Below, piece after piece: positions 18,292 through 39,056 of a DNA stretch of 40,212 nt. Source of the stretch: a virus; the IMG/VR virus record IMGVR_UViG_3300031521_000016, positions 99,895 through 140,106 of that record. One strand, given 5' to 3'. The stretch's first letter is position 1; the number at the start of each line of letters is the position of its first letter. Below the pieces are notes generated by a model, which searched no databases, had not been told where the DNA came from, and saw nothing but the letters and a program-made list of their open reading frames with translations. Made by a program: the position numbers and the translations under genes.

Positions 18292-18293
18292 TG

Positions 18294-19306: not shown

Positions 19307-19332
19307 TGGCCACTAGAACTTAGTGGCCATTT
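19304..19332 (-). terminator. Terminator hairpin after the gene at 19339
   Basis: A perfect 12-bp stem AAATGGCCACTA/TAGTGGCCATTT with a 5-nt loop lies just after the stop of the gene at 19339-19641. On the minus strand it is followed by TGTGTGTT rather than a pure T-run. Confidence 0.75.
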
Positions 19333-19338
19333 ATTTTG

Positions 19339-19641: not shown

Positions 19642-19657
19642 AGTAAGTAAAGTTTTT

Positions 19658-20389: not shown

Positions 20390-20425
20390 GTGTTATACGT
20401 TTTGCTTTCTAAATTTCTTTAATCT

Positions 20426-21152: not shown

Positions 21153-21173
21153 AATAGTCGTTTAAATAATACC

Positions 21174-22592: not shown

Positions 22593-22615
22593 ATTTATTA
22601 TTTAGTTGTTTATAG

Positions 22616-22625
22616 ATAACAAAAA
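22616..22625 (-). promoter_or_regulatory. Candidate promoter element shared with gene 39
   Basis: The minus strand reads TTTTTGTTAT, 23 nt upstream of the gp52 ATG. The same decamer lies 22 nt upstream of the gene 39 ATG (26087-26096). Both are followed by a similar AT-rich leader containing TAAATAAT. The overlapping TATTTTTG also fits the Bacteroidota -7 box pattern TAnnTTTG. Confidence 0.4.
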
Positions 22626-22644
22626 TATGATGTTCTAGAAAAGA

Positions 22645-22673
22645 AAAAGGAGCTATTTTAGGTAGCTCCTTTT
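22645..22673 (-). terminator. Terminator after the ferritin-like gene
   Basis: An 11-bp stem AAAAGGAGCTA/TAGCTCCTTTT with a 7-nt loop lies 20 bp downstream of the gene ending at 22694. On the minus strand it is followed by TTTTTC. It separates that gene from gp52. Confidence 0.85.
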
Positions 22674-22693
22674 ATTATTGTCAAACAACTATG

Positions 22694-23065
22694 TTATTGT
22701 AATGTTAAAAGATATTTTAATTTGTCTATAAGAGCTTTAATCTCATCGACGATATTGGATATTTCGGTATCAACTTGTTTATCTAATCCGCAAGACCAAA
22801 TTTCTAAAGAAAAGAAATTCTGTATGTCAATAAAGAATACATTTATCTTCAAATTACTGTAATCTGATACCTGAATAGAATCAATACCTCCAAGTGAAAT
22901 TCTACCATATTTTCCTTGTATAGCTTCAATTAATCTATCGATTACTGAGTCTACATCTTCATAGAATGAACCAAATGCCATATGCTCTGCATATCTCATT
23001 GTTTGCCAGTGTAAAATTCTCGTTTCTGCTTGCAGCTGTAAGCATTTCAAGACGATTTTTTTCAT
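22694..23065 (-). CDS. Ferritin/Dps-like phage protein (DUF5856-like)
   Basis: The 123-residue protein contains ILHWQTMRYAEHMAFGSFYEDVDSVIDRL. This corresponds to a Dps-like helix pair: His near 19 in L-H-W-Q-T, His28, and Glu/Asp at 36-37, followed by EAIQGKYGR. Small T4-like phage proteins with this pattern are known as DUF5856 and resemble the first half of ferritin-like bundles. Metal binding or oxidant protection is possible; no experimental role is known to me. It is the last gene of the gene 39 unit and is followed by a strong terminator. Confidence 0.75.
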   Translation of the reverse strand: MKKIVLKCLQLQAETRILHWQTMRYAEHMAFGSFYEDVDSVIDRLIEAIQGKYGRISLGGIDSIQVSDYSNLKINVFFIDIQNFFSLEIWSCGLDKQVDTEISNIVDEIKALIDKLKYLLTLQ

Positions 23066-23076
23066 TTCATTTTAAG

Positions 23077-23925
23077 TCATTTTAGCTTATTGATATATTT
23101 CAACTTGTTGTTGTATATCTTATTTGTTGTAATATTTGTGTCCTCTATTTTACCGTCGATATCATTCTGAAGTTTTATGTCAGATTGTTTGAAACGCATA
23201 TCTTGATTAGCGACTACTGCTTTAACTTGTGCCACTGTATGTAATTTAGTAGCTTGTAAAACTAAATCATCTACTGGTGCATCATTATAAAGATCACAGG
23301 CTTCTAAGTAATTGTCTAAGATTACATTAAGATTATTCTCATTAGGAATTTCTATTGTACTATGAAAAGTTTCTTTGCCATTAATAGTGGTTGTTACAGT
23401 AATTCCTGATATTCTATTATGAGGAACTCTAACGATATAGCACAAAACAGATGTCATATCGTCATTTGGTTGTGTAGATTTTATATCGAATACGTAGTCA
23501 CCGTCTTCTTTACGAATAGCTGAAACTTTTGATACACTCTCTGATGCTTGAGCAAATAAGTGAAATTTCTCACATAGCTCTTTCGGATTATAGGGATTGT
23601 GTATTGCATTATCATCTACCATTTCTGATTCTTTAATAGCATAGATGAAATTCATTACTTTTTTAATGATCACTTCGTCTGTACTATTATCGCAATTTAT
23701 CGTATGTTCATTACCATTTCTTACAACTTCTATAATAGAAGATGATAGATTGCAAGTAACTTTTAACATGTCTCCACTTCGAGTTTCAAATGAAAATGTA
23801 CGAGAATCTGCTACAGACTTAATACTTGAAACATGTTCTGTATCTTCCGATGTAGCAATTAATCCATGTATCTTCTCGATAAGCTCTTGAATTTTAAAGT
23901 GCTCGAACAATACTGTAAATCTCAT
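23077..23925 (-). CDS. Hypothetical protein, 282 aa
   Basis: This protein is unrecognised. It appears to contain two similar segments. The first has a helix FKIQELIEKIHGLI followed by strands SIKSVADSRTFSFETRSG. The second has a helix ELCEKFHLFAQASESVSKVSA followed by EDGDYVFDIKST. This suggests an internal duplication. The C-terminus is Lys/Asn-rich. It lies downstream of gene 39 and two tiny genes, joined by ATGA overlaps. Confidence 0.75.
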   Translation of the reverse strand: MRFTVLFEHFKIQELIEKIHGLIATSEDTEHVSSIKSVADSRTFSFETRSGDMLKVTCNLSSSIIEVVRNGNEHTINCDNSTDEVIIKKVMNFIYAIKESEMVDDNAIHNPYNPKELCEKFHLFAQASESVSKVSAIRKEDGDYVFDIKSTQPNDDMTSVLCYIVRVPHNRISGITVTTTINGKETFHSTIEIPNENNLNVILDNYLEACDLYNDAPVDDLVLQATKLHTVAQVKAVVANQDMRFKQSDIKLQNDIDGKIEDTNITTNKIYNNKLKYINKLK

Positions 23926-26209: not shown

Positions 26210-26683
26210 TTATTTACTGTAAACAAGAAAGTGATCATTTAAATCAACTACTCCTTTTCTTTTTCGTAGTCCGTATTTTTTCACATCTCCAATAGCTTCT
26301 TCTATTTCCTTTGTGTCAATATATCTATCATTATTTAATGATGCTATTGCATAGAATATATCGGCAGTTTTAGCCATGTCATCAGAATCGATTTCTAGAA
26401 ATTCTTTTACCCATTCTGCATCATCTACTTCACGTATTTTTCCGTGTTCAAGAGTATAAATGCCTAATTCTTCTCCGTCATCGTCTTGTAATATAATCTG
26501 AAAATCAAAGTCTGGAAATTTCCCTTTCATAATTTCCAATGTACTGTCGACAAATTTATAGTTCACGACATCAGAAACTGTAGCAGAGAATTTAGTTGTG
26601 ATATATGACTTTGGTGCTTGAAAAGCTTCATTTATAAAAGCCTCGAAGAGCTTAACATGTTTCATAGTATTTCTTTTTTTCAT
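26210..26683 (-). CDS. Putative capsid-targeted internal protein A
   Basis: The 157-residue product begins MKKRNTMKHVKLFEAFINEA. The segment LFEAFINE matches the recurrent aromatic-x-x-aromatic-(I/V/L)-x-E pattern of this region and resembles the T4 internal-protein capsid-targeting peptide. T4 gp21 cleaves after (I/L)-x-E, so cleavage after FINE is predicted. A second ATG at 26665 would give MKHVKLFEAF, closer to the other members. The ATG at 26683 overlaps the upstream stop as ATGA and is kept here. The body is acidic alpha/beta with no known motif. Confidence 0.75.
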   Translation of the reverse strand: MKKRNTMKHVKLFEAFINEAFQAPKSYITTKFSATVSDVVNYKFVDSTLEIMKGKFPDFDFQIILQDDDGEELGIYTLEHGKIREVDDAEWVKEFLEIDSDDMAKTADIFYAIASLNNDRYIDTKEIEEAIGDVKKYGLRKRKGVVDLNDHFLVYSK

Positions 26684-27519
26684 AAATTAACGTCTAGCTC
26701 TCTAATTTGTTCACCTTTTTCTTTGATGACTTTACCAATGTTTGTTATATTGACAGTATCATACCACAAAGGCGTTTTGGTCTTGCTATTCAATGATACG
26801 TACAGTCCATTTAAACCTACATATTGAACCAAAGATTTTCCATCGTATTGGATTCTATTCGCAATAAGATTTCCGTCTTTATATGACAGTCTATAGAGAT
26901 CATCATTAAGCTTGACCATGTTAGAATTTGTCTCTTTACGTTCAAGATTATTTACACCTTTGATATATGCAGCGTATAGATTTCGTTTACCGTTATCTAA
27001 TTTATTGCCGTATATTAGTACTACACCTCCAGTTGTATAACTTACACTTTCTAATAAATGATCGTAAGTATCTAACGCTCTGATAATCTTTTTATTTCCT
27101 TGATATTCACGTCTAATAGACTTTGAAATTTCAAGATTCATTTTCACGAGCAAATCTCCTGATTCCCATGATTGGTCAGTATCACCAATATCTTCTGGTT
27201 TAAAGTCACTTGCCCATGCCATAATAGCTTCATCATCTACATCTTCATACTCTTCTTCATCATCTCTATCGCGTACAGCTTTTAGAGTATATTTATGAAG
27301 TTCTTCATCAGCTATATACGCAGCATAAAGTTGATGATCATCTAAATTTTTAAGGATAGCAAGAGACTTGTAATCACTTACTACAACTTTAAATTTTATA
27401 CGATCAGCATTCTTTTTGTCCTCTATCCAATCTTCATCTCTTGAAAATTCAATTTCGGGTTCTAACCATGGCTCATCATGTTTTTCTGAGATGAAGTTAT
27501 CGAATGTTTTAAGTTTCAT
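26680..27519 (-). CDS. Putative capsid-targeted internal protein B
   Basis: The 279-residue protein begins MKLKTFDNFISEKHDEP. FDNFISE fits the same targeting and cleavage pattern as its neighbours, with predicted processing after Glu12. The body is acidic in its first half (DRDDEEEYEDVDDEAIMAW). It is beta-rich in the second half (VVLIYGNKLDNGKRNLYAAYI, GLNGLYVSL). No enzymatic motif was found. It overlaps the upstream gene by 11 bp and the next gene by 4 bp. Confidence 0.75.
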   Translation of the reverse strand: MKLKTFDNFISEKHDEPWLEPEIEFSRDEDWIEDKKNADRIKFKVVVSDYKSLAILKNLDDHQLYAAYIADEELHKYTLKAVRDRDDEEEYEDVDDEAIMAWASDFKPEDIGDTDQSWESGDLLVKMNLEISKSIRREYQGNKKIIRALDTYDHLLESVSYTTGGVVLIYGNKLDNGKRNLYAAYIKGVNNLERKETNSNMVKLNDDLYRLSYKDGNLIANRIQYDGKSLVQYVGLNGLYVSLNSKTKTPLWYDTVNITNIGKVIKEKGEQIRELDVNL

Positions 27520-27805
27520 TATAATGAAAAAATTTGTCGAATCTTATTAGTTGATAATGCGAGCCATGTTCTGGATAGATGAATACTCCAGATTTATTGA
27601 CCATAATAACATCGTAGAAATTAAATTCTATCTTTTCTGGTACCATATCTCTTATAGTACGAACACATGAACATTTATGACCTAATACACCACAGTGATT
27701 ACCATGAAGTATAGTTACTAGCTTAGTTTTCAGCTGTTCATCAGTTAATAGAAATAAATCTTCAAATATGCTTTGTCCACACTCGGCATCTTTCAAATCT
27801 TCCAT
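27509..27805 (-). CDS. Hypothetical protein, Cys/His-containing, 98 aa
   Basis: This protein is unrecognised. It has HGNHCGVLGHKCSCVR near residues 34-49, giving a cluster of Cys and His that could bind a metal. A helix FEDLFLLTDEQLKTKLV precedes it and a beta-type C-terminus follows it (FYDVIMVNKSGVFIYPEHG). It lies between two members of the putative capsid-targeted set but lacks their N-terminal peptide. Metal binding is inferred. Confidence 0.68.
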   Translation of the reverse strand: MEDLKDAECGQSIFEDLFLLTDEQLKTKLVTILHGNHCGVLGHKCSCVRTIRDMVPEKIEFNFYDVIMVNKSGVFIYPEHGSHYQLIRFDKFFHYNET

Positions 27806-27810
27806 AGTTG

Positions 27811-28053
27811 TTACGAATTGCGTATCATGTCAACGAATACTGTGTATCTATTTGTTTCTTCTCCTTCTTTACCGTCTGGTGATTTAAATGAATATTTGAC
27901 TAATACATCTGGTGTAATTGCATTTGCATCAATGTAGATATCCTTAACAGATAATTTGCTGCCTTTTTTCGAAACATACATTTTGCCTGATTCTATTAAT
28001 CCAAATCCCTCTGTTTCATAGAGCTTGCCTATGTTATTTGCGTAAGTTTTCAT
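27811..28053 (-). CDS. Small protein, possible weak capsid-targeting start
   Basis: The 80-residue product begins MKTYANNIGKLYETEGF. MKTY and the following L-Y-E recall the T4 internal-protein start (MKTYQEFIAE), but the spacing differs from the other members, so inclusion is tentative. The body is a short beta-type domain (KMYVSKKGSKLSVKDIYI, VLVKYSFKSPDGKEG). It begins 15 nt after the stop of 28069-28902. Confidence 0.65.
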   Translation of the reverse strand: MKTYANNIGKLYETEGFGLIESGKMYVSKKGSKLSVKDIYIDANAITPDVLVKYSFKSPDGKEGEETNRYTVFVDMIRNS

Positions 28054-28068
28054 TCGTATTTTTATTTT

Positions 28069-28902
28069 TTATTCTTCGTCTTCGTCTTGAAGCATTTGAG
28101 CTGCCATAAAGATGTCTTTTAATAGATCGATGTCTTTTATGTCTCTTCTTTTTGCATATTCTTCACATTCTTGGTATGAATCTGGTAATTCAGCACCATA
28201 GAAATCGAACATGTCTTGTGCCATATCGTCTATATCATCTTTTGATTCAAAAAGATTATCTACGATAAAGTAATCTAAACTTTCATTTTGTTTAGAGCCT
28301 GATGCAAGTTCAGTATTTTTCTTTAACCAGTTAAGTGCTCTACCTGCACTATATTTTAGAATCTTTATGAATTTTTCTGCCATTTCATCGATAGTAAAAT
28401 CAGTATCAGCTTTCAGTTTATAACCATAATCATTGTCATTAACTTTGATGAAATACTGATCGTTTTTAACCCCGACTGGTACTACTTTAAATTCTTTTAC
28501 AGATTCTGATTCATTAAGCAGTTTCAATATCTTTTCAAGCTCTATCTTTTTACCGAATAGTCTTGAAATCTTACCTACTATTGCCCATTCACCTTCAATG
28601 TTTTCAATTTTATATGACTCGGTAAGTGAAGGAGAACTTTTAGCTTTCCATGCTGAATCTAATTGTTTTTTAGCATCAGTTACTTTAGTGCTATCTACAT
28701 TTAGTCTTTTAAACCATTTATCTTCACCGTACTTTTTATCTAAGAGAGCTGATACCTGATCATCTGACATAGCAGATGTTATACCCAACTCAGCATCCTT
28801 TTTTATATCTATCCTGTACTGATCTCCAGTACTAGGAATGAGGATTACATTAACAAATTCTGCTTCATTAATGTAATCCTCATATAACTTCACATATCCC
28901 AT
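28069..28902 (-). CDS. Putative capsid-targeted internal protein C
   Basis: The 277-residue product begins MGYVKLYEDYINEAEFV. LYEDYINE-A is an excellent match to the shared targeting/cleavage pattern, with predicted clipping after Glu13. The body is charged, with a beta-like first part (VNVILIPSTGDQYRIDI) and a helical, very acidic C-terminus (DDIDDMAQDMFDFYG...LQDEDEE). Acidic bodies are common among phage internal head proteins. No catalytic motif was recognised. Confidence 0.75.
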   Translation of the reverse strand: MGYVKLYEDYINEAEFVNVILIPSTGDQYRIDIKKDAELGITSAMSDDQVSALLDKKYGEDKWFKRLNVDSTKVTDAKKQLDSAWKAKSSPSLTESYKIENIEGEWAIVGKISRLFGKKIELEKILKLLNESESVKEFKVVPVGVKNDQYFIKVNDNDYGYKLKADTDFTIDEMAEKFIKILKYSAGRALNWLKKNTELASGSKQNESLDYFIVDNLFESKDDIDDMAQDMFDFYGAELPDSYQECEEYAKRRDIKDIDLLKDIFMAAQMLQDEDEE

Positions 28903-28947
28903 TGATATAATTTATTTTGAATATATATCTTGCTGTGCAAATTGTTG

Positions 28948-29451
28948 CTAAAGAAGAATAACTGTTGTATCTACTCCTTTTTCGACTAGTTCATCTTTTA
29001 TAATTTGTTCGATGATATCCCAATTTCCACCTGCTAGGCCTGCTCCTATTTTTGGTAGTTGTACACTGTAATTTTCATACAATGCTTCTTGACAGATAGT
29101 TTGCATTCCTTTTCGAATTGCATCATATCTAATTGGAGCATTTCCAAATTCATCAAAGCCAATGCTTCTTTGACCCAGAATATTTACTATATACCCTTCA
29201 TCGATTTTTACGAATTGAGCTTCTCCAAGTTTCCATTCTACAGGTAAATCTCTATCGTCTACATAAGATATTCCTAGAAAAGAGGTATTGTACCATCTTC
29301 TATATTCTTCTCTTGATTGTGGATATCTATTTGCAAGTGGAATAACGAAACCAGCTCCCCAACCTCCAATATCGTTGCAACAATGAGTAATAATTACTCT
29401 TTCAGAAAGAGGTAATGTTGCATCACCTGTAATGTATTTAAGTTGATTCAT
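28948..29451 (-). CDS. Macro-domain protein (ADP-ribose binding/processing)
   Basis: The 167-residue protein is a single macro domain. It starts with LKYITGDATLP and has VIITHCCNDIGGWGAGFVI (18-36), which supplies the N-D and G-x-G-x-G ADP-ribose contacts. It continues with a NILGQRS segment and VQLPKIGAGLAGGNWDII near the end. This pattern is closest to Poa1p/ALC1-like macro domains, which bind ADP-ribose, hydrolyse ADP-ribose 1''-phosphate or remove ADP-ribose from macromolecules. In a phage it may counter ADP-ribosylating or NAD-consuming defences or clear RNA-repair by-products. It is flanked by short AT-rich gaps of 45 bp on either side. Confidence 0.9.
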   Translation of the reverse strand: MNQLKYITGDATLPLSERVIITHCCNDIGGWGAGFVIPLANRYPQSREEYRRWYNTSFLGISYVDDRDLPVEWKLGEAQFVKIDEGYIVNILGQRSIGFDEFGNAPIRYDAIRKGMQTICQEALYENYSVQLPKIGAGLAGGNWDIIEQIIKDELVEKGVDTTVILL

Positions 29452-29497
29452 ATAGAATGTGTTTATTTTAAAATAACAAATCTTTATTCTGAATAAA

Positions 29498-29761
29498 CTA
29501 TTCTACCAATTTCTTTTTATACACATCAAATCTATCTATATGTCGTGGAAGCTCGCTAGTCAATAGTTTGAATAAACTGTATACTCCTGCTTCGTATGGT
29601 TCAAGATACGTTTTGCCTAAATTTTTGTAATAGACTTCCAAAAATTGTTTTGTACCGTAACATGGTATGGCACAGAGTGCTCTTGCTTCATCTTCCGATA
29701 AAGTAAGAGTCACTGTTAATTTCAATTCAGATGTTGATTTTATGCTTGAAGTTTCCATCAT
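29498..29761 (-). CDS. Conserved small phage protein, 87 aa
   Basis: The 87-residue product has LTVTLTLSEDEARALCAIPC, then YGTKQFLEVYYKNLGKTYLE, then PYEAGVYSLFKLLTSELP. I know this arrangement (beta strand, E-A-R-A-L, FL-x-x-YY-x-x-LG, E-x-G-x-x-SLF) from a common but unnamed phage family. Its ATG overlaps the stop of 43A (ATGA), so it is coupled to the N-terminal polymerase half. Confidence 0.75.
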   Translation of the reverse strand: MMETSSIKSTSELKLTVTLTLSEDEARALCAIPCYGTKQFLEVYYKNLGKTYLEPYEAGVYSLFKLLTSELPRHIDRFDVYKKKLVE

Positions 29762-31140
29762 TTTTCCTTTAGTAATTGTTTTAGTTGATCAACTTCTTTT
29801 TCTATAGCAAATCCACATTTTTTAGCTTCTTTACGTAATCCATAAAAGTTAGCAAGCATGGCTCTCATTAATGAATCTTTAGAATTATCGAATACTGCAC
29901 CTGAAGCAGTTTTGATCCAATTTTTGTCTTCTGGAATATCTATTCCTTTTCCCATAAATGATTCTGGAGATATATTCCATTGTCTCATAGTAGAAGGATA
30001 TAGTGATGCAAAGTCAAAAGTAGCTAAATATTGAAATAGTCCTTTTTTAGGGTCTTTTACATATGCACCTTCAAATGATTGATCTTTCGATCCTTTTTTC
30101 ACTTCTGCTATAACTCTTTTTCGTTTGTAGAACTCTCTAATCATGATAGCTTCTGTCATCCAAATCGGTGAGAATGCTTTTTGAGATTCTACTTGTGTAA
30201 CATTTCCTAACATTAAGAAAGTTTGAAGAGTCTTAATTTTTCTGTCAATTTGATACACCAAGTAAGTATCGACAGCATTGTAAAACATGTAAGTTTCTGG
30301 ATCGTTATGATACAAATCCATAAGTGATCCGTTATATTGAATTTTCTGAATACCCAATACTGCTTTACCTACGGTGTCAAGTTTAAAGTTATCTTTAATC
30401 TTTACTACTCTATCCCATTTCTTATACAAGTCCAAATAATCGACAACGATTTTATGCTGTGGTAATTGATCGTCGCCTTTCATTGTTCTACTTGGTGAAC
30501 ATGTAGAAGGATCAATATTCAATCTTTTACATCTGTTAATCAAGAACTTCCAGTCAAAGTTTATAAAGTTCCATCCTGTAATAAGTGGGGCTTCTCTGAA
30601 CCATTTACCGAATAATGTTATCAGTAATTCAGACTCTGATTTGAAATGAATATATTGAATTGATGCATTTGGATCGTAATCTTTTAAATGTTCTCTATAT
30701 CGTCTTTCGATATTCTGTTGTTGCTGAATAGTTAACTCTTTTGTTCCAAGTACAGTAGTGGCACCTCTTGAATTTACTAATGCTACTGCGGTAACTTTAG
30801 TAGCTGCTATAGCAGGATCGGGAAAATCATCTTCAACTTCAACCTCGATATCACAAAACCATGATTCAGGAGCATTAAATTCGTATATTTCTTTCAGATA
30901 TTCTGGACCTAAAGCAGTCATAAATTCTTCAATTCTGAATCTATTTAGCCAGTTAGCTCTAGTTTTCTTTACGGGCTTACCATCCCATGTATGATAGTAA
31001 GGATCTGCTCTTTCGGAACCTGCTAGTTCCCATTTGTACTTTTCAGTTCGTGGAATAGCAATATCTTTAAATGCTACTTTACCGTCTTTACCGAAATGTG
31101 ATACTCTTAATGTATCATTTATTTGTTCTATATCGATCAT
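29758..31140 (-). CDS. 43A: DNA polymerase gp43, N-terminal half (43A: exonuclease and palm start)
   Basis: The 460-residue protein has all three 3'-5' exonuclease motifs of family B polymerases: WFCDIEVE (94-101), WNFINFDWKFL (190-200) and FYNAVDTYLVY (286-296). It continues into polymerase motif A, DFASLYPSTMRQWNISPES (376-394). It then stops in the fingers, after LANFYGLRKEAKKCGFAIEK and a short helix LKQLLKEK. Motifs B and C are absent and are encoded by 43B at 16945-18126. The break falls at a helical, surface-exposed point, so a two-chain enzyme is plausible. No frameshift or intein motif is visible at the end; the stop is a clean TGA overlapping the next start. Confidence 0.96.
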   Translation of the reverse strand: MIDIEQINDTLRVSHFGKDGKVAFKDIAIPRTEKYKWELAGSERADPYYHTWDGKPVKKTRANWLNRFRIEEFMTALGPEYLKEIYEFNAPESWFCDIEVEVEDDFPDPAIAATKVTAVALVNSRGATTVLGTKELTIQQQQNIERRYREHLKDYDPNASIQYIHFKSESELLITLFGKWFREAPLITGWNFINFDWKFLINRCKRLNIDPSTCSPSRTMKGDDQLPQHKIVVDYLDLYKKWDRVVKIKDNFKLDTVGKAVLGIQKIQYNGSLMDLYHNDPETYMFYNAVDTYLVYQIDRKIKTLQTFLMLGNVTQVESQKAFSPIWMTEAIMIREFYKRKRVIAEVKKGSKDQSFEGAYVKDPKKGLFQYLATFDFASLYPSTMRQWNISPESFMGKGIDIPEDKNWIKTASGAVFDNSKDSLMRAMLANFYGLRKEAKKCGFAIEKEVDQLKQLLKEK

Positions 31141-31148
31141 CTTAAAAA

Positions 31149-31592
31149 TTATTTAGTACCTGTTGAACCGAAACCACCTGCTCCTCTTTCTGAAGATTGG
31201 CCTGCATATAATTCTGCGAGTGAAGTAGATTCTTCTATATCGTCATATGCAACATCTAATAAAAGGAATTGTACAATTTTATCTCCAGGTTCTATTGTTA
31301 TTGGCGAATCTGATAGATTTGTAAGATGTAAATGTACTTCACCTTCATAATCTTCATCTACTACACATGCACCTACTTGTAATTTCTTTTTAGTAGCAAC
31401 ACCAGATTTGTTGAATGCAACAAGTGCTTTACCAGTTGGAACATTTACATGTATTCCACTTGGAATATTTATGTCTTTGTGTGGAAATACTACTACAGGG
31501 ATGAAATCATTAGGCACAAAAAAATCTAATCCAGCGGATTGTTTAGTACCACGACGTGGTGTTTTTACGTCTTTTACTTTAAATATCTTCAT
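31149..31592 (-). CDS. dut: dUTP pyrophosphatase (trimeric dUTPase)
   Basis: The 147-residue protein carries the dUTPase motifs: AGLDFFVP (20-27), NKSGVATKK (61-69, in place of the more usual GRSS/GRSG), CVVDEDYEGEVHLHL (76-90), EPGDKIVQFLL (101-111) and the C-terminal ERGAGGFGSTGTK (135-147). It converts dUTP to dUMP and diphosphate, keeping uracil out of phage DNA and feeding thymidylate synthesis. The substitution in motif 2 still keeps the Ser. It starts 42 nt downstream of a terminator-promoter module and lies 8 nt before 43A, so both are probably expressed together. Confidence 0.96.
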   Translation of the reverse strand: MKIFKVKDVKTPRRGTKQSAGLDFFVPNDFIPVVVFPHKDINIPSGIHVNVPTGKALVAFNKSGVATKKKLQVGACVVDEDYEGEVHLHLTNLSDSPITIEPGDKIVQFLLLDVAYDDIEESTSLAELYAGQSSERGAGGFGSTGTK

Positions 31593-31633
31593 ATATTAAT
31601 CATTTTGCCTTTTTAGTAATTTTATTCAATATG

Positions 31634-31650
31634 TTCTGAAAACACACAAA
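31634..31650 (-). promoter_or_regulatory. Candidate promoter element, copy 2 (dUTPase/43A unit)
   Basis: The minus strand reads TTTGTGTGTTTTCAGAA, matching the copy at 19290-19306 at 15 of 17 positions. It begins at the foot of the terminator hairpin at 31649-31675 and lies 41 nt before the dUTPase ATG. Confidence 0.45.
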
Positions 31651-31675
31651 AGGGACACTGGATTAGTGTCCCTTT
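31649..31675 (-). terminator. Terminator after the gene at 31727
   Basis: An 11-bp stem AAAGGGACACT/AGTGTCCCTTT with a 5-nt loop is followed on the minus strand by TTTTGTGTGTTTT. It lies about 50 bp downstream of the stop at 31727. The intervening stretch contains a weaker CCTCT/AGAGG pairing. Confidence 0.85.
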
Positions 31676-31726
31676 CTTGAAAAAGCCCTCTAAGTGTGCA
31701 TCAAAATGAGAGGCATAGAAAGCGTT

Positions 31727-32212
31727 TTATGATTTTTTGAATACCAATTTAGCTTTTGTAGATAAACCTGTCAAAAGTTTTGCCAATTCTTTACCTGGCT
31801 CACCAAGTTCTCCATCTTCTAATTTAAGAAGAATTCCTTTTAGTATTAAGTAAGATACTCCACCTATTACAGCACCTGCTGCGGTAGCGGTTAATGCAAC
31901 CAGCGAATTTGTCAATAGACTAGTTAGAGCAGCTACATCTTCATTAGCTTCTACTTCTACTTGTTCACCTTTACTTGCTAATTCTTTAATCCAAGAAGCA
32001 AATTTCTTACCTTTATCTCCAAGTTTTCCTGCTTCAAGTTGTTTGAATGCTTCATTAGCAGACTTTGCAGCAGCAATTGATATACCAGCAGCAGCTGTAC
32101 CAGTAACAATACTCTTAATAATTGGAACAACTTTGTCAACTAACGCGCTTTCATTAAGTGCTTCGTTATTAAGATTTTCATTTACGAAATCATCGTATCT
32201 TTTAATTTTCAT
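31727..32212 (-). CDS. Putative capsid-targeted protein D with two hydrophobic segments
   Basis: The 161-residue product begins MKIKRYDDFVNENLNNEA. YDDFVNE fits the shared capsid-targeting pattern (V in place of I/L). The mature part is Ala/Gly/Leu-rich, with two hydrophobic segments: about residues 26-48 (VVPIIKSIVTGTAAAGISIA) and 111-133 (LVALTATAAGAVIGGVSYLIL). Each is followed by a similar G-K-L/GEL-x-x-x-G-K-x-(F/L)-A-x-(W/L) stretch, suggesting an internal duplication. A virion-internal, membrane-inserting protein could act during DNA entry; that is inference. A structured RNA region precedes it. Confidence 0.8.
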   Translation of the reverse strand: MKIKRYDDFVNENLNNEALNESALVDKVVPIIKSIVTGTAAAGISIAAAKSANEAFKQLEAGKLGDKGKKFASWIKELASKGEQVEVEANEDVAALTSLLTNSLVALTATAAGAVIGGVSYLILKGILLKLEDGELGEPGKELAKLLTGLSTKAKLVFKKS

Positions 32213-32318
32213 TTTTTGTAACTTTTATTTTGTTATTTCAGAACTTTTGCCGACGATGAATACAATAATTATCGGATCATTTAGTGGTAAAGTATGCTAT
32301 TTAAGACTTAGATAATAA

Positions 32319-32404
32319 ACCCAATCTCGTAAATTGGGTACGCATCTTAAGGCAATGCGATTGAGAGAACAAGTCTCATGCCACGTCCTTTACTCTTTGA
32401 GTAA
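32319..32404. ncRNA. Four-hairpin intergenic RNA element
   Basis: Four hairpins follow each other: ACCCAAT/ATTGGGT (32319-32339), CGCAT/ATGCG (32341-32359), TGAGA/TCTCA (32362-32378) and TTACTC/GAGTAA (32390-32404). An alternative pairing GGCA/TGCC encloses the third hairpin and competes with the second. The region separates minus-strand genes, so it would lie in the leader of 31727-32212. No tRNA fold or known riboswitch was recognised. On the minus strand the last hairpin is followed by TTATTAT and might end transcription weakly. The remaining leader to 32213 is AT-rich. Confidence 0.45.
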
Positions 32405-32415
32405 TGACAATTAAA

Positions 32416-32652
32416 TCAGAGCTCTACGAATTCTATTGGAACTTTAATTTCCCAAGCAGTAGTTTCGTATGTCTTATATGTTTTACTCCAATCTTTCAGA
32501 TTGATTACACGTTGTACTGCTACTACATAAAGCGGTGTTACGCTAAATGTAATTGTTCCACCTCTTACATTGACAACTTTTCTGTTTATCAAAGTCAAAT
32601 CTTCTTCAAGAAATGGAAAATGTTCTTTTGTTATCGTTGCTCTCAGTTTCAT
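32416..32652 (-). CDS. Hypothetical protein, 78 aa
   Basis: This small beta-rich protein is unrecognised (KVVNVRGGTITFSVTPLYVV, then TAWEIKVPIEFVEL). Its ATG overlaps the last nucleotide of the upstream gene's stop. It ends 12 bp before the four-hairpin RNA element. Confidence 0.65.
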   Translation of the reverse strand: MKLRATITKEHFPFLEEDLTLINRKVVNVRGGTITFSVTPLYVVAVQRVINLKDWSKTYKTYETTAWEIKVPIEFVEL

Positions 32653-33131
32653 TATGATATAGGTGCTATGCCTGATCCTTCTTTACTAGCTTTACCAGTT
32701 AAGTTTTGACCGTGGCCGTTTTGTGTGTTATTATCGTGAGTTTTGTAATTGATAAGTTTCAAGAATCCTTCAAAGTCATAAATTCTACGTTCATGTTTTG
32801 CTTTCTTCTCAAGTGGCAACTTAAATGTAGAAGGTGTGAATCTAGGATATTTCTTTTCAGCCTTTTCGATACCTGGAGTTCCTCCTTGATAATCGTCTGG
32901 AGTTAATCCTTCATTCATCGATTCCAGAAATTTTTCAGCGGCAAATTCAATAGCTTCTGTTACTTCTTCTGGTAGTCCTTCATGTTTTGTTCCAGCCATT
33001 CTTTCTAATTCTTCTTCTGACATTGAATCAGCTAAAGCTTTTATTCCTTTTGGACAATCTTTGGATTCTCCTCTTTTACATGCTAGTGCCCATCCGAAAA
33101 GACGTTGTTGAGATTTTGATTTACTTGGCAT
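32652..33131 (-). CDS. DUF3008-like protein
   Basis: The 159-residue product starts MPSKSKSQQRLFGWALACKR, then GE, CPKGIKALADSMSEEELERM and AGTKHEGLPE. This matches the small DUF3008 family (S-K-S-x-x-Q-Q-R-x-x-G-x-A-L-x-x-K-R-G), which is frequent in T4-like phages and of unknown function. A C-terminal extension of about 90 residues includes FLESMNEGLTPDDYQGG and a GNG/GQN-rich tail. L-E-S-M-N-E looks like a possible internal protease site, but this is weak. Its neighbours are putative internal head proteins. Confidence 0.75.
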   Translation of the reverse strand: MPSKSKSQQRLFGWALACKRGESKDCPKGIKALADSMSEEELERMAGTKHEGLPEEVTEAIEFAAEKFLESMNEGLTPDDYQGGTPGIEKAEKKYPRFTPSTFKLPLEKKAKHERRIYDFEGFLKLINYKTHDNNTQNGHGQNLTGKASKEGSGIAPIS

Positions 33132-33167
33132 CTTAGTTAATATTTTTATTTGTATGGTATCTCTCCA

Positions 33168-33704
33168 CTATAATTGTCGAATTATGAGTTCTTCATCTGC
33201 TATAACATCAAATTCTGGTCGAAGTATAGTGAGTAACATTCCGAGAATATTCTTCTTTAAATCTGGAAGTAAAGTCGTCTCATCAAATTTCATACCGGCA
33301 GACTTAAGTGCAACTCTAGTAATTTTCAAATCTTCTAGTGAAACAGCAAAGTCTGTACTTTCTTTATCATAATCATTAGGGTTATTATTATCAAACTCAG
33401 GTTGTCCCTTATATTTAACAATAAAATGCACTTCTAATTCATATTCTTGGTTATCGATTGCTACTTGTATGTAATAAGTACATTTCGATTCTTTTTCTTC
33501 TTCTTGAGTTTGCAAATTCAGGAAAACTGGCCATGAACGTTTTTCCTGCATAAAGACTATATTGTCCTGTTCTCTATCAGGCATTACAAATTTTGAATAG
33601 TTTCTGTTGATTTCACTAGCTACCATTGATACAGTAGATGAATCACTCATGATATTCTTTTCTGCTTCTGCTAAATAATCTTTATACGATAAAATTTTTC
33701 TCAC
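33168..33704 (-). CDS. Putative capsid-targeted internal protein E
   Basis: The 178-residue product begins MRKILSYKDYLAEAEKN. YKDYLAE-A is a strong match to the shared targeting and (I/L)-x-E cleavage pattern and closely parallels T4 MKTYQEFIAEA. The mature part is mixed alpha/beta (CTYYIQVAIDNQEYELEVHF, then FAVSLEDLKITRVALKSAG) with no motif I can name. It is flanked by two other proteins of the same N-terminal class. Confidence 0.75.
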   Translation of the reverse strand: MRKILSYKDYLAEAEKNIMSDSSTVSMVASEINRNYSKFVMPDREQDNIVFMQEKRSWPVFLNLQTQEEEKESKCTYYIQVAIDNQEYELEVHFIVKYKGQPEFDNNNPNDYDKESTDFAVSLEDLKITRVALKSAGMKFDETTLLPDLKKNILGMLLTILRPEFDVIADEELIIRQL

Positions 33705-33741
33705 AATTATCTTTTAATTTCAAACTATATATCAACATGCA

Positions 33742-34170
33742 CTAAAATGTTGCTGAATGTAATACTTCTTGCATCATACTATCTTGTGCATTATATCCTT
33801 TTCTTGCAATAGTGAATTTCTGTAAAGCAGGTGTGACAATTGTTATTCTATCTGCTCTGAATAATCTCCATCCTGGTACTAATCTAGGGTTTATTTTCCC
33901 AGATCTACTGTATCCTCTGATCAGCCATGCTCTTACGAGTGTATTCCCATGTTTATCTACGCCTATAGCATAAGGTTCTATAACTCTTATACCGGGAAGT
34001 ATCTTAGAATTCGGTTCACCTCTATAATCAATTGTACATACAAATTTATTCGTTACTGCATCATTCAATTTTGTCATGTTTGATCCATAGTCTTCATTTA
34101 TTTGCATATCGTAAGAATTTGAATTTACGAACTCATTTATAAATTCATCATAGTCTGCTACATGTTTCAT
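33742..34170 (-). CDS. Putative capsid-targeted WYL-like protein F
   Basis: The 142-residue product begins MKHVADYDEFINEFVNS, with YDEFINE matching the shared targeting/cleavage pattern. After about 45 residues it has a compact beta domain: KFVCTIDYRGE, GIRVIEPYAIGVDKHGNTLV, RAWLIRGYSRSG, then GWRLFRADRITIVT. This resembles WYL domains, which bind nucleic acids or nucleotides and modulate regulators. There is no DNA-binding helix-turn-helix. If packaged, it could be delivered into the host at infection as an early effector. It ends with TAG and overlaps the upstream gene by 4 bp. Confidence 0.78.
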   Translation of the reverse strand: MKHVADYDEFINEFVNSNSYDMQINEDYGSNMTKLNDAVTNKFVCTIDYRGEPNSKILPGIRVIEPYAIGVDKHGNTLVRAWLIRGYSRSGKINPRLVPGWRLFRADRITIVTPALQKFTIARKGYNAQDSMMQEVLHSATF

Positions 34171-36023
34171 ATATTCTGATCTTTTAAATCTTTACGTAAT
34201 TTATAGTAGTAGTTATGTACTATAGGCGGACAAATTGACTTAAATGCATGATAGTCATCTCCTCTTAATGCTTTAAGTGGTATTTCTGTACCAAAATAAT
34301 CTTGTGCATCTACGTATTCAGGTTTCATTCCTGTTTGCATTACAAAGTCATTATAGTAGTTTTCTTCTCCGCAAAAGTGTGTAGGTAAACATTCTCTAGT
34401 CTTTAATGCCGAATCGATTTCTGAATAGTCAGGTCTTGTACATAAGATTAATCCTTCTAAATAGTCTTTGTTATTATTTAAGAAATCTGAAGATAGACTC
34501 TTATAAGTATCTAATGTTGTGAAAGGGTTACCTATCATTACAAGAAATGTCTTCTGATTAGTACGTTCTTTCATATCTCTTAATGCAGTTACTATCCCAT
34601 TATGATAAGGTGCAGTTTTCGAAACCATAACCGATACTGATTTTCCACCATTTGGTAATGAAGGAGAACTTAAATTTTTCAGTAGTGTAATAAAAGATAC
34701 CTCTTTCTCGACAGTTTTTTCTGCTGGAGTTTCTGCTACTGGAATATTTTCAAGAGGTTGAGTGCCTTGGAATCCATCTTCGTGAATACGTATCCCATAT
34801 TCTTCCCATCTGTCACTTTCACTTGACATGAAAATATCTCTGAAATCATTAAAAGCTAAAAGACTTTCAGATATTCCAATGTTGATATAATCAGCTATTT
34901 TATCAACTAACTTATTATGATACCAAATAAGCTCTTGTTTAAAGAATCCGAATGGTTTCTTTTTATGTGTTCGCATAGAAGCTAGCATTATCTTAAATAA
35001 ATCTCTATTCAAAGAGCTTTTTCTAAGTAACTCTACAGCTTCATTGTTTTTTACAAAATTGAAGTTTACACCAGCTTCTGCTCTAGTAAGGAATGCTGGC
35101 ATTTCAAAATCTATTTCTCCACTAAAATTATTCTTGTAATAAGAAGATTTGCAAAATGATACAAATGCACGAGAAATGAATTCGATATATCTATCTTCAA
35201 ATGTCTTCTGCTTTAAGTCTATTTTACTGAAATTTAAAGTCTGGAAAAATTCTTGGAACATTACAAGCGTTAAACTGTAAATATCAGAAGGTTTATCGTC
35301 TTTCTTATCTACCTTCTCATTTTGATACACTGGATTCATAATCTTCAAAGGATTTTCTCCATCAAATTTGAATACTAATGCTTCAATGTCTCTATCAAGG
35401 GTGTTTTGCATGAATGATTTTCCCATGCCTGGAACTAATACATTCAAGAAATATGCAGCGAAGTTTTCAATTTTAAATTTTTTCAGAATCTCATCTTGTG
35501 GAGTATTCAGATAGTCTAAAATTTTATCTAATTGTTCTTTGTTCAACTTTCCTTTGAATAAAATAGGAGAAGGTTCAACTTCTAAATAATCAGCCCATTT
35601 ATTCAACGTTTCTTTATCGGAAATTATATCGATTACTTTACCATTCGGATCTCTTACTGTGATATCTGTCAGAACTAAATTATTCTTTGGCATCCTTTCG
35701 TATGCTGTTCTGACAGGATTTAAGTTTGGGAAATATTCAAATCCAAATCTCCAACCAGACGGAATGCCGGCTAATTTCTCATCAGTAAAAGATGAGAAAT
35801 GAGAGATTGCTTTCTCATAATATCTTGCAAGTGTTCTATCTATTTTCGTAATAGGAGCAGAATCATTTCTTTTGAAAAATTTGAATTCATCGGCATCATT
35901 CAACTCTGCAGAAAAGCGTGAACCGTCAAGCTGTTCTTCACATGTTAAGTCTTTATCTAATAATTTTTCTACATATTTAGGATCTTTTTTATAAAGATCG
36001 TATAAATGATTTATACCTGCCAT
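34167..36023 (-). CDS. Ligase-like nucleotidyltransferase fused to degenerate adenylyltransferase-like domain
   Basis: The 618-residue protein has two nucleotide-handling folds. Residues 1-235 resemble ATP-dependent ligases: EEQLDGSRF (29-37) for motif I, WRFGFEYF (91-98) for motif III, EALVFKF (214-220) for motif IV and LKIMNP (226-231) for motif V. The attacking Lys of KxDG is Gln31 (CAG codon). A helical middle follows. The end (about 460-618) resembles NMN/nicotinate adenylyltransferases: APYHNGIV (471-478) for the HxGH site with the second His missing, and IPLKALRGDDYHAFKSICPP for the ISxTxxR end. Both active sites look altered, so binding or a changed reaction is likelier than standard ligation. 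NAD metabolism or RNA repair is a guess. Confidence 0.8.
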   Translation of the reverse strand: MAGINHLYDLYKKDPKYVEKLLDKDLTCEEQLDGSRFSAELNDADEFKFFKRNDSAPITKIDRTLARYYEKAISHFSSFTDEKLAGIPSGWRFGFEYFPNLNPVRTAYERMPKNNLVLTDITVRDPNGKVIDIISDKETLNKWADYLEVEPSPILFKGKLNKEQLDKILDYLNTPQDEILKKFKIENFAAYFLNVLVPGMGKSFMQNTLDRDIEALVFKFDGENPLKIMNPVYQNEKVDKKDDKPSDIYSLTLVMFQEFFQTLNFSKIDLKQKTFEDRYIEFISRAFVSFCKSSYYKNNFSGEIDFEMPAFLTRAEAGVNFNFVKNNEAVELLRKSSLNRDLFKIMLASMRTHKKKPFGFFKQELIWYHNKLVDKIADYINIGISESLLAFNDFRDIFMSSESDRWEEYGIRIHEDGFQGTQPLENIPVAETPAEKTVEKEVSFITLLKNLSSPSLPNGGKSVSVMVSKTAPYHNGIVTALRDMKERTNQKTFLVMIGNPFTTLDTYKSLSSDFLNNNKDYLEGLILCTRPDYSEIDSALKTRECLPTHFCGEENYYNDFVMQTGMKPEYVDAQDYFGTEIPLKALRGDDYHAFKSICPPIVHNYYYKLRKDLKDQNI

Positions 36024-36051: not shown

Positions 36052-36552
36052 TCAAAATCCGTACTTCTTTCCCATAATCATGCCTCTAAATGCATGTCCA
36101 CCTCTTATTAGCCATTCATTAAAGCTTATGTCTTTTCCTATCCCTGAATGAATCCATTTTCTAAATTCTAGATTTTGAATAATATCAGTGAATGGTTTAA
36201 CGAGTTTTATTATATCTTTTTCTGCAGCTGATCCATAAAATGGATGTGGATCAGGTATAACTTTACCATCCTTTAATATCGATAATACCCTTTCTGAATT
36301 AGAAATCGTCTTACCGTTTTCATCATATTGATATACTTCTACTTGTACAATAGTATGATCTGTATAGATATATGCTCCATTAAATTTAACTTTGAATTTA
36401 TGTTTATCATCTAATTCTTGTTCTAAAATAATAGCACTATCTTTTGGTACAACATTAGTAAAATTGGACTCTACATAAGAAAACTTAAATTTATCTTCAA
36501 GTATAATTTTTTTATACGGTTTTAGCTTATTGTCAGCTTCTGGTTTATTCAT
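36052..36552 (-). CDS. Tandem paralogue 1 with C-terminal GKKYGF signature
   Basis: The 166-residue protein is a clear paralogue of its upstream neighbour at 36555-37031. Both share IILEQEL/TILEQAL, KF(K/R)VKF, VKPFTD-x-IQNLE, RKWI-x-SGI and the end RG-x-IMGKKYGF. The fold seems to be a beta-rich domain followed by helices. The C-terminal 35 residues also resemble the end of the unknown gene between 47 and 46 (2628-3161). Only 2 nt separate the two genes, indicating tandem duplication. Function is unknown. Confidence 0.8.
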   Translation of the reverse strand: MNKPEADNKLKPYKKIILEDKFKFSYVESNFTNVVPKDSAIILEQELDDKHKFKVKFNGAYIYTDHTIVQVEVYQYDENGKTISNSERVLSILKDGKVIPDPHPFYGSAAEKDIIKLVKPFTDIIQNLEFRKWIHSGIGKDISFNEWLIRGGHAFRGMIMGKKYGF

Positions 36553-36554
36553 AT

Positions 36555-37031
36555 TTAAAATCCATATTTCTTTCCCATAATCCTACCTCTAAATGTATGA
36601 CTACCTTTCTTTACCCAATCAGTAAAACTTACTTCTTTAGCTATACCAGATTGAATCCACTTTCTAACTTCTAGATTTTGTATAGCATCAGTAAATGGCT
36701 TAACTAATCTTATCATATCATTTGATGTCTCAAATTTGCATGATGGATCAGATGTGACTTTGCCGTCTGCTGATATGATCAGATCTCTGTCAGAGTTGGG
36801 ATATATCTGGCCTCCTTCATTATAATGAACCAAGTAAAGTTCTACAACTGTGTGACCATCTATGTATATTTTAGCTGCAGAAAATTTAACTCTAAATTTA
36901 CGTCTATTATGATCTAACGCTTGTTCTAAAATAGTAGCAACTTCTCTAGGCACTGCATTAATAGTACTTGCTTCTATACAGAGAAATTTAGTATTGTCAT
37001 TAAGTATAAGCGGTTTACCTTCTAAAAACAT
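36555..37031 (-). CDS. Tandem paralogue 2 with C-terminal GKKYGF signature
   Basis: The 158-residue protein is the partner of 36052-36552. Matching blocks are AVPREVATILEQALD, RKFRVKFSAAKIYIDGHTVV, RLVKPFTDAIQNLEVRKWIQ, SGIAKEVSFTDW and RGRIMGKKYGF. The copies differ mainly at the N-terminus, and identity is highest at the C-terminus. It begins 15 nt after the methyltransferase stop. Its function is unknown; the conserved C-terminal tail suggests binding to a common partner. Confidence 0.8.
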   Translation of the reverse strand: MFLEGKPLILNDNTKFLCIEASTINAVPREVATILEQALDHNRRKFRVKFSAAKIYIDGHTVVELYLVHYNEGGQIYPNSDRDLIISADGKVTSDPSCKFETSNDMIRLVKPFTDAIQNLEVRKWIQSGIAKEVSFTDWVKKGSHTFRGRIMGKKYGF

Positions 37032-38414: not shown

Positions 38415-39056
38415 ATGGCAGAAACATTAAAAATCGATAAACTGAAGGGTATTATTCCTGATTCAGTTTTAGCAGAAATTCCAATAACAGCTGAAAAGTT
38501 CAATATAACAACTAATCTAAGATTAGCACATTTTTTATCTCAATGTGCTCATGAAAGTGGTGGTTTTTCAGTCGTAAAAGAAAATTTAAACTATTCTGAA
38601 GATAGAATGGTACAGATATTCAAACATGACTTTGACGTTAATCATGATAAAGTAATATCTGATTCAGAAAAGAAAAAAGCTAAAGAGTTAGCAGGACAAC
38701 CAGATAAGATAGGCAATTTCGTATATGCTAATCAGAATGGAAATGGAAATGAAGCAAGTGGAGACGGATACAAATATTCAGGAAGAGGATATATCCAACT
38801 TACAGGAAGAGTCAACTATGCAGAATTTGATAAATTAGTCACTGAAGACATCATGGAATCTCCAGGATTAGTAGCTACTAAATATCCGTTATCATCTGCA
38901 GCTTTTTATTTCAGTAAGAACAATCTGTGGAAAATATGCGATCAAGGTGCTACAAATAATGTAGTAATACAATTAACTAAACGTATAAACGGTGGTACGA
39001 TTGGACTAGATGATCGATTGGCAAGATTTAAAAAGTATTATGACATACTCAAATAA
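38415..39056 (+). CDS. GH19 (chitinase-class) endolysin with EF-hand-like insert
   Basis: The 213-residue protein has the glycoside hydrolase 19 core: LSQCAHESGGF (41-51, catalytic Glu47), VVKENLNYS (53-61, Glu56), NGNGNEASGDGYKYSGRGYI and QLTGRVNYAEF, ending LTKRINGGTIGLDDR. Phage GH19 enzymes cleave peptidoglycan for lysis. Residues 74-85 read DVNHDKVISDSE, matching the 12-residue EF-hand calcium loop (acidic at 1, 3, 5, 9 and 12), inserted where relatives have a short linker. There is no signal peptide, so export would need a holin, which I do not see. It stands alone on the plus strand behind a late-type promoter box. Confidence 0.93.
   Translation: MAETLKIDKLKGIIPDSVLAEIPITAEKFNITTNLRLAHFLSQCAHESGGFSVVKENLNYSEDRMVQIFKHDFDVNHDKVISDSEKKKAKELAGQPDKIGNFVYANQNGNGNEASGDGYKYSGRGYIQLTGRVNYAEFDKLVTEDIMESPGLVATKYPLSSAAFYFSKNNLWKICDQGATNNVVIQLTKRINGGTIGLDDRLARFKKYYDILK

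Follow-up and report, generated by a model that had tools for sequence, protein, structure and literature searches.

A T4-type capsid-targeting peptide, predicted from sequence, on unrelated clustered proteins of a large phage

A cluster of proteins with a common N-terminal peptide

The window analysed here is a stretch of 40,212 nucleotides, positions 99,895 to 140,106 of the IMG/VR record IMGVR_UViG_3300031521_000016. Six proteins encoded on its minus strand at 26210-34170 share the N-terminal pattern M-x(4-5)-[FY]xx[FY][ILV]xE, hereafter the tag. An earlier note on this DNA had listed six such peptides, and we found every one of them where it had been placed. The genes of the region are listed below, with scores from the tag profile described further on; the arrow marks the predicted cut.

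26210..26665, minus: tagged protein; tag MKHVKLFEAFINE↓A at 26627-26665; 34.0 bits, top of 240 ORFs
26680..27519, minus: tagged protein; tag MKLKTFDNFISE↓K at 27484-27519; 19.2 bits
27811..28053, minus: 80-aa protein MKTYANNIGKLYE, named by the earlier note and passed over by the tag profile
28069..28902, minus: tagged protein; tag MGYVKLYEDYINE↓A at 28864-28902; 27.3 bits
31727..32212, minus: tagged protein; tag MKIKRYDDFVNE↓N at 32177-32212; 20.0 bits
32652..33131, minus: DUF3008 protein, untagged, between tagged genes
33168..33704, minus: tagged protein, GTG start; tag MRKILSYKDYLAE↓A at 33666-33704; 12.6 bits
33742..34170, minus: tagged solo WYL-like domain; tag MKHVADYDEFINE↓F at 34132-34170; 16.7 bits
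34167..36023, minus: ligase-like protein, untagged, flanking the tagged cluster

The ORF at 26210 can be extended to 26683, and since its tag follows an internal ATG the gene is likely 26210-26665. The 31727 protein has a V where the T4-type site has L or I, and a further site, LNE↓S, follows at residue 21. Two hydrophobic stretches are visible in it by eye, and it gives a weak SseC-like match under the Pfam cut-off. A single-sequence fold of the 28069 protein was unusable (mean pLDDT 39.3), and a search of IMG/VR with the 28069 and 31727 proteins returned only 100% copies as relatives. The ligase-like gene is a conserved neighbour in the record LR756500 and has matches in a number of island loci. 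A protein resembling the DUF3008 one (MPSTSVKQRAFF, by eye) occupies the same slot in LR756500.

We called 240 ORFs by script on the whole 140,106-bp contig and used them as the search set. The pattern [FY]xx[FY][ILVM]xE occurs 20 times in these ORFs, 9 of the 20 near a start codon. When only the longest start was considered, 7 ORFs had it at residues 4-7, where chance gives a mean of 0.14 and a maximum of 3 (2000 shuffles); random internal windows, used as a control, gave a mean of 0.28 ORFs and a maximum of 3. A tag profile trained on other phages ranked nine contig ORFs at 34.0 to 10.8 bits, with the next ORF at 3.0 bits. The best of 1330 decoys scored 6.2 bits, and none reached the level of the nine. 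These comprise the six window proteins and the ORFs at 45249-46814, 55590-55970, and 1326-1778 of the contig; in the tag of the 1326-1778 ORF the Glu is missing. The ORF at contig position 83296, one of the nine with the pattern near the start, is not in the profile's 24 best. The 27811 protein, which had been counted with the cluster, is also absent from these 24 and is not supported as a member. Hence, the six genes lie where they had been reported, but 26210-34170 does not bound the set, as three further profile-picked ORFs lie elsewhere on the contig. The claim that the rest of each protein is unrelated to the others was borne out: similarity among the tagged bodies is not significant (best E 0.14), and none matched another ORF of the contig at E 0.01.

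Conservation of the tag and the predicted cut site

The logo was built from 164 tagged proteins, after exclusion of the 77 of 241 that matched the bait. Its regex-free columns K, [HYN], [IVL], K, E, and N are conserved. Past the Glu, P1' holds 0.78 bits and the following positions 0.04-0.26 bits per column (22 columns). Conservation thus stops at the predicted cut (n=164). Over all 241 tags the P1' residue is A in 74, S in 49, G in 25, K in 19, and N in 17. A, S, or G therefore occupies this position in 148 tags; of the 241, however, 77 fit a bait that itself demanded A, G, V, D, or E at P1'. In the window it is A, S, or G in three of the six and K, N, or F in the other three.

Second (I/L)xE(A/G/S) sites at residues 14-30 are enriched in tagged proteins, with 32 in 3856 positions versus 51 in 13168 untagged ones (Fisher 0.0014). 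The major capsid proteins (MCPs) of the loci L089, L100, and L088 and of LR756500 have LINE↓[SA] near the N-terminus. Tags of unrelated bodies resemble each other more when they come from one contig (0.495) than when they come from different ones (0.400; maximum of 500 label shuffles 0.459), and wobble codons differ within one genome.

Tagged islands in related phages

The contig represents part of the genome of a T4-like phage that is kin to uncultured phages of 462-735 kb. Among 80 loci fetched with the tag, 225 of 1048 ORFs are tagged, and the densest locus has 15 of 21. The bodies of 210 tagged proteins fall into 143 families; 16 of 731 same-contig tagged pairs have homologous bodies, and one body may bear differing tags in different phages. 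Tagged bodies in the relatives include RimK-like ligases (RimK ATP-grasp), cytidylyltransferases, a MoxR ATPase (AAA), and KTSC; the MoxR homologue of LR756500 is without the tag motif. The Pfam scan covered 145 tagged representatives, alignment A1 having omitted 44 of 189, mostly short ones, and at most about 32 of the 145 had a match at E 0.001, in 26 families. The matches to PADLOC were scattered and weak, spread over 11 families with a single member each and a best E of 2.1e-4. At the DNA level, the tag pattern has 16-23 matches in each of four huge-phage records versus 1-6 in the reversed control. Lak-A1 showed no tag excess, with 6 matches versus 5 in the control and 67 head-region ORFs checked by eye. 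One consensus-tag protein (L098), used as a query against the phages collection, matched nothing there.

In L089 and L100 the gene order is portal, tagged gene, protease/scaffold, MCP. The tagged gene of L088 adjoins the MCP, some genes separate the tagged genes of L054 from the portal, and the portal-protease-MCP stretch of LR756500 has no tagged gene. A gp21-type prohead protease was found in LR756500 and, by BLAST, in L089 and L100. In our contig (G000), which is a fragment, neither gp21 nor gp23 exceeded the Pfam cut-off. Nor did gp23 in the two records behind L010 and L211, one a near-identical contig extending ours and the other a further contig from that sample. None of 28 ORFs labelled as replication, packaging, head-shell, or sheath is tagged. 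We considered a basic payload and rejected it, since the tagged bodies of the relatives carry the same net charge as untagged ones (p 0.75).

The solo WYL-like protein

The body of the 33742 protein starts at about residue 30, after a further site, INE↓D, at residue 26. It scores 21.7 bits against Pfam WYL, just under the cut-off of 21.8, and 5 of 14 members match at E 0.01. The 20 best Foldseek PDB matches of its model are WYL regulators, although the top one, 7qfz, reaches only E 1.5e-3, and the closest solved folds are those of BrxR, PafBC, CapW, and DriD. Unlike these, it is tagged, and its 142 aa leave no space for their DNA-binding domain. WYL-domain proteins in four huge-phage records are untagged, and 37 of 38 WYL relatives have a start like MKLYNTFKSLILE. 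We tried reading these relatives as a second tag dialect, but a pattern search of four of their records gave no other convincing start. We dropped this reading because it rests on one protein per genome.

Comparison with known systems

The T4 peptide that the earlier note had cited, MKTYQEFIAEA, is correct for IPII and IPIII. In these proteins (MKTYQEFIAE↓A) the spacing, [FY]xx[FY][ILV]xE, is that of the window tags, which differ in having two to three extra residues ahead of the first aromatic. In the targeting sequence of IPIII, residues 4 and 7 serve targeting and residues 8 and 10 processing (PMC9026906). IPI, IPII, and IPIII (Straboviridae) likewise combine a short N-terminal peptide ending in (L/I)xE with unrelated bodies. 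T4 has three internal proteins, against the 16-23 pattern matches in each huge-phage record; the large relatives also differ from T4 in their runs of tagged genes, in enzyme-like bodies, and in lacking the basic bias of the T4 proteins.

The jumbo phage PAU, whose host is now placed in Sphingobacterium, offers another dialect: its tagged cluster is gp131-gp164, and 14 of 54 ORFs examined start with MK[TS][LI]xxL[YF]E or near it. These ORFs lie around the portal, protease, scaffold, and MCP genes, two are annotated as internal capsid protein, and their packaging is likewise only predicted. In phage P1, the N-terminal signal of DarB carries the protein, and a reporter, into the head; unlike the tag shared here, the Dar N-termini yielded no consensus in that study (PMC9024508). 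Phages of the SPN3US type are reported to have many head proteins that are cut by the prohead protease and then ejected (PMC5694885, PMC10052503). SPN3US belongs to another phage group. We know of no 13-residue tag common to its ejection proteins.

Capsid targeting and alternative explanations

Taken together, these sequence comparisons strongly support capsid targeting by the tag. The peptide is very probably a T4-type capsid-targeting sequence (CTS) whose form, M-K-x(2-3)-x-[FY]-E-x-F-[ILV]-N-E↓[ASG], is specific to the lineage, and the cluster is then one of the islands of internal-protein genes in a large T4-like phage. This reading, which the earlier note had advanced for a set of head-packaged, injected proteins, agrees with the T4 spacing, the end of conservation, the unrelated bodies, the presence of tagged genes within the head operon in certain relatives, and the (I/L)xE↓(A/S/G) sites of the capsid proteins. 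It fits less well with the absence of a basic bias and with the P1' residues in three of the six window tags. Also weighing against it are the lack of gp21 and gp23 above the cut-off in our contig, the location of the tagged genes of LR756500 and L054, the result for Lak-A1, and the untagged MoxR and WYL proteins. During head assembly the tag would attach to the scaffold core inside the prohead, and the protein behind it would be enclosed once the shell is built around that core. A cut after the Glu by the prohead protease (gp21 homologue) would free the body inside the head, from where it would exit with the DNA at infection and act on the host. We found no virion proteomics of these phages in the open-licence literature searched. 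That literature yielded no paper on capsid targeting in huge phages, and the titles and first lines of abstracts of its jumbo-phage papers told of no shared tag.

The tag might instead route proteins elsewhere in the infected cell, to a replication compartment, a nucleus-like shell, or the membrane. The tagged genes in the window and in LR756500 do sit amid replication genes (polymerase, dUTPase, ligase-like) and not head genes. However, the portal, protease, and capsid genes of LR756500 are of T4 type, the (I/L)xE site that closes the tag is of the kind cut by T4 gp21, and the labelled core ORFs, replication included, are untagged. A nucleus-type compartment was rejected on a search of 6 records for PhuZ-type tubulin, as opposed to chimallin, which found no such gene. 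We thus consider another destination unlikely.

Common descent deserves still less credence. Divergence is rapid in phage genes, and the few homologous same-contig pairs show that paralogous bodies do occur; the proteins might therefore descend from a single family that expanded and drifted apart everywhere except in the first 13 residues, which would have no function of their own. Yet the families to which the bodies have matches (RimK ATP-grasp, cytidylyltransferase, AAA, KTSC, WYL) are unrelated, the body families are numerous, and the same body bears differing tags across phages. It is just as improbable that the peptide is a by-product of codons serving expression, as a translation start, mRNA signal, or recombination spot. 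The tag does lie at the extreme 5' end of genes, where common ends could aid gene shuffling, but within a single genome the synonymous positions change and the encoded residues do not, and the residue classes are conserved up to the Glu and no further.

Implications for large phages

The tag is a new dialect, and a new scale, of a known principle. If it is a CTS, the first 13 residues name candidate injected proteins of uncultured large phages from sequence. In T4, Ip1-3 act against type IV restriction, each inhibiting its own enzyme (PMC12373910), which would make the tagged proteins prime candidates for counter-defence and host takeover. The low share of Pfam matches among them points to a large pool of uncharacterised functions. 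The tag might also allow the loading of foreign proteins into large-phage heads. More tentatively, and with somewhat more doubt than confidence, we suggest that a portable head-import code, with dialects that differ between lineages, serves large T4-like phages (probably infecting Bacteroidota) to pack their virions with arsenals of ten to twenty or more different proteins, delivered at infection. The payload would be partly enzymatic: RimK-type ligases may modify ribosomal proteins, cytidylyltransferases and a MoxR ATPase would be carried along, and solo WYL domains could compete for the signal or the partner of the WYL regulators that control BREX and CBASS defences.

Occurrence of the N-terminal peptide in the contig

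The earlier note described six neighbouring minus-strand proteins of the window beginning with one kind of peptide, and all six peptides were found at the positions it gave. We define this tag as [FY]xx[FY][ILV]xE near the start and call the remainder of the protein the body. Across the whole contig (G000, 140,106 nt), 240 ORFs were called in stretches, and [FY]xx[FY][ILVM]xE occurs 20 times in them, 9 of these near the start. Among longest ORFs, seven carry the motif at residues 4-7, where shuffling predicts 0.14 and sampling of internal windows 0.28, with a maximum of 3 in 2000, and the 26210 protein is an eighth carrier when counted from an internal ATG. A position-specific profile of the tag, trained on loci of other phages, was then run on the 240 ORFs and 1330 decoys. 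Nine ORFs scored 34.0 to 10.8 bits, the tenth 3.0, and the top decoy 6.2. The nine are:

Window, minus strand, 26210, 26680, 28069, 31727, 33168 and 33742: the six tagged proteins
G000 45249-46814: MoxR-like AAA+ ATPase
G000 55590-55970: 126-aa protein
G000 1326-1778: 150-aa protein, with the targeting part but lacking the Glu

A seventh window protein that the note had included, 27811, fell outside the 24 best scores. The six bodies are unrelated to one another, as the note had stated. The Glu is followed by A in 26210, 28069 and 33168, and by K, N or F in the other three.

The window, which makes up the final 40,212 nt of this IMG/VR record, encodes T4-type replication genes, as read from translations and homology to LR756500, an uncultured 462-kb phage. 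The portal of the contig, outside the window, is closest to that of the same phage (LR756500.1, 43.5% identity), followed by 540-735-kb uncultured and Lak phages, and then by Tenacibaculum PTm1 and PAU. The contig is apparently part of a larger phage genome, since neither gp21 nor gp23 exceeded the family cut-offs in it and a near-identical contig (G001) continues beyond its right end. The latter has one further tagged gene past the right edge of the window, MKLLKFNEFLNE.

Distribution in related phages

In LR756500.1, 23 proteins in 686 ORFs have the motif at the start, mostly as MKYI/MKFI..Y..F..E, and 22 of the 23 motifs occupy residues 4-7 when the longest ORF is taken (shuffles 0.58, maximum 5). 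Matches to a DNA pattern of the tag, relative to a reversed control, were 23/2 in LR756500, 19/3, 18/6 and 16/1 in records 504, 502 and 501, 6/1 in G000, 2/0 in PAU, 2/0 in T4 and 1/1 in PTm1; some matches are not genes, because the pattern admits two out-of-frame spacings, and the T4 internal proteins (IPs) are missed because their peptide is shorter ahead of the first aromatic residue. Lak-A1 showed no excess (6 matches vs 5 in the reversed control). Searching IMG/VR with a stricter pattern gave at least 120 stretches. Among the 80 loci listed, 71 had at least one tagged ORF by the ORF-level rule, and 225 of the 1048 ORFs were tagged, which is not a genome-wide rate since the loci were selected by the tag itself. 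The densest of these loci have 15/21, 13/29 and 10/22 tagged ORFs, and 165 of the 225 tagged ORFs have an immediate neighbour that is also tagged.

Anatomy of the tag

We built a logo from 164 of 241 non-redundant tagged proteins, excluding the 77 that matched the pattern used to fetch the loci. Its consensus is M-K-[HYN]-[IVL]-K-x-[FY]-E-[ED]-F-[ILV]-N-E. Information falls to 0.78 bits at the position following the Glu (S, A, K, N, G) and to 0.04-0.26 bits per column over the following 22. The conserved unit thus stops at the predicted cut. In all 241 tags, the next residue is A in 74, S in 49, G in 25, K in 19 and N in 17. Residues 14-30 are enriched in a second (I/L)xE(A/G/S) site (32/3856 positions in tagged vs 51/13168 in untagged proteins, Fisher 0.0014; vs 15/11964 at residues 30-80 of tagged proteins, 3e-10).

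The third codon positions of the tag differ within single genomes, and the bodies of 210 tagged proteins sort into 143 families of at most 9 members. Over eight free positions, the tags of unrelated bodies have a similarity of 0.495 on the same contig (710 pairs) and 0.400 between contigs (25,912 pairs; maximum of 500 shuffles, 0.459), while those of homologous bodies on different contigs reach 0.477 (129 pairs). As tags are more alike within than between contigs, genomes tend to have a dialect of their own.

Tagged bodies

A Pfam scan of 145 of the 189 tagged representatives revealed 26 families at E 0.001, including RimK (1.8e-36), sugar-transfer ATP-grasp (3 members), cytidylyltransferase-like (3), KTSC, cREC, Tlde1/YkuD and AAA_5. 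PHROGs added cytidyltransferase (4) and ribosomal protein S6 glutaminyl transferase (3). No basic bias of the tagged bodies was found. The ligase-like neighbour of the window cluster (34167-36023) is similar in its C-terminal part to three tagged cytidylyltransferases, and has a weak, below cut-off match to DNA_ligase_A_M. A tag is present on the MoxR ATPase of G000 and on those of two IMG/VR stretches, L087 and L050, which are alike; the LR756500 homologue (MSFKNFTQYSEH) lacks this motif. Iyer et al. proposed that the jumbo-phage MoxR-vWA pair acts in virion assembly (PMC7824862), and a tag on MoxR would fit a location in the head.

The 33742 protein has relatives on 38 other contigs (35-41% identity), besides one 100% copy, and they match only from residue 24-37 onward. 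Of these 38, 37 have a MKLYNTFKSLILE-like start, and no other convincing protein with such a start was found in the records of four of them. An AlphaFold2 model is of low confidence up to residue 30 (block means 46, 48, 55), with block means of 91, 91, 78, 90, 87 and 84 over residues 31-90. Its top PDB matches by Foldseek are the WYL regulators BrxR, PafBC, CapW and DriD (E 1.5e-3 and weaker). A similar domain occurs in four huge-phage records as part of larger, untagged proteins, hence the tag is not tied to the body. As a guess, a lone WYL domain that enters the cell together with the DNA might compete for the ligand of WYL defence regulators by titration.

Other features of the contig

A C-terminal peptide is common to 23 of the 240 ORFs, which end in [FY]G[FLM], mostly as RGxxxxxKFGF (shuffles 0.18, maximum 2). 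In LR756500, about 15 proteins have a different C-terminal peptide, like NADDFGFFDN (regex 17/686; shuffles 3.2, maximum 10), and 9 of the proteins with such an end also bear the strict N-terminal tag. The C-terminal peptide looks lineage-specific, given its few matches in IMG/VR (19 stretches vs about 6 expected by our own estimate). Homology to LR756500 identifies a gp43-like family B DNA polymerase that is split into two parts about 12 kb apart; that of LR756500 is also in pieces, with an intein-like sequence, identified by eye, adjoining the C-terminal piece. The features are:

Window 2628-3161, 36052-36552 and 36555-37031: ORFs with the C-terminal [FY]G[FLM] peptide
Window 29758-31140 and 16945-18126: parts of the DNA polymerase
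Window 28948-29451: presumably a macro (ADP-ribose) domain protein; LR756500 homologue, 30%
Window 38415-39056, plus strand amid minus-strand genes: what we take to be an endolysin-like protein; 55% identity to a plus-strand LR756500 gene
G000 18258-23617 (stretches L002/L003): ABC transporter operon with ATPase, permease, an OmpA-domain protein of 602 aa and two further genes

The ATPase, permease and OmpA-domain protein of this operon are 62-73% identical to those of LR756500 and the two other genes 40-47%, for 25-50% in most shared genes.

Comparison with capsid targeting in T4

The T4 peptide given in the earlier note is correct, as IPII and IPIII do start MKTYQEFIAEA. According to the review PMC9026906, the first 10 residues of IPIII are enough for packaging, residues 4 and 7 act in targeting and 8 and 10 in processing, gp21 cleaves after L/I-x-E, and targeting is possible without processing. 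These functional residues (Y4, F7, I8, E10) share their spacing with the motif of the window proteins.

Gene order points in the same direction in some relatives. In the slot of T4 genes 67/68, L089 and L100 carry a tagged gene, flanked by the portal and the protease/scaffold genes and situated upstream of the capsid gene; in L088 one lies directly ahead of the capsid gene. LR756500 speaks against such a link, as it has no tagged gene between portal, protease and capsid. In these four, the capsid protein has LINE|(S/A) near its N-terminus, and the corresponding sites are KLNE|S in PAU and QITE|S in PTm1; all of these are putative cleavage sites. None of 28 ORFs labelled portal, protease, capsid, terminase, sheath, polymerase, helicase, recombinase or gp46-nuclease is tagged. 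The jumbo phage PAU infects a Sphingobacterium host (PMC3738902). In 31.5 kb around its portal, protease, scaffold and capsid genes, 14 of 54 ORFs begin MK[TS][LI]xxL[YF]E or near it, and two of these proteins are annotated as internal capsid proteins. In G000, two small portal-adjacent genes (90213-91140; L006 14213-15140) begin MRIKKYKEFNED and MGYKKIKTFDGFTMLAEG. They occupy the position of T4 genes 67/68 and may bear a looser variant of the tag, but the profile scores of both proteins are not above the decoys.

The principle is already known from the T4 capsid targeting sequence; for its dialect and lineage here, for how many genes carry the tag and for the enzymatic payload, we found no description in the open-licence literature searched. 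The lack of gp21 and gp23 over cut-off in G000, the K, N or F after the Glu in three proteins, the missing basic bias and the lack of excess in Lak-A1 count against a capsid targeting sequence and leave room for doubt, although none of them is decisive; targeting in T4 can occur without processing. Of the sequence features of internal proteins bearing such a sequence, the short N-terminal peptide and the unrelated bodies were found, and the basic bias was not. With high probability, the peptide functions like the capsid targeting sequence of T4.
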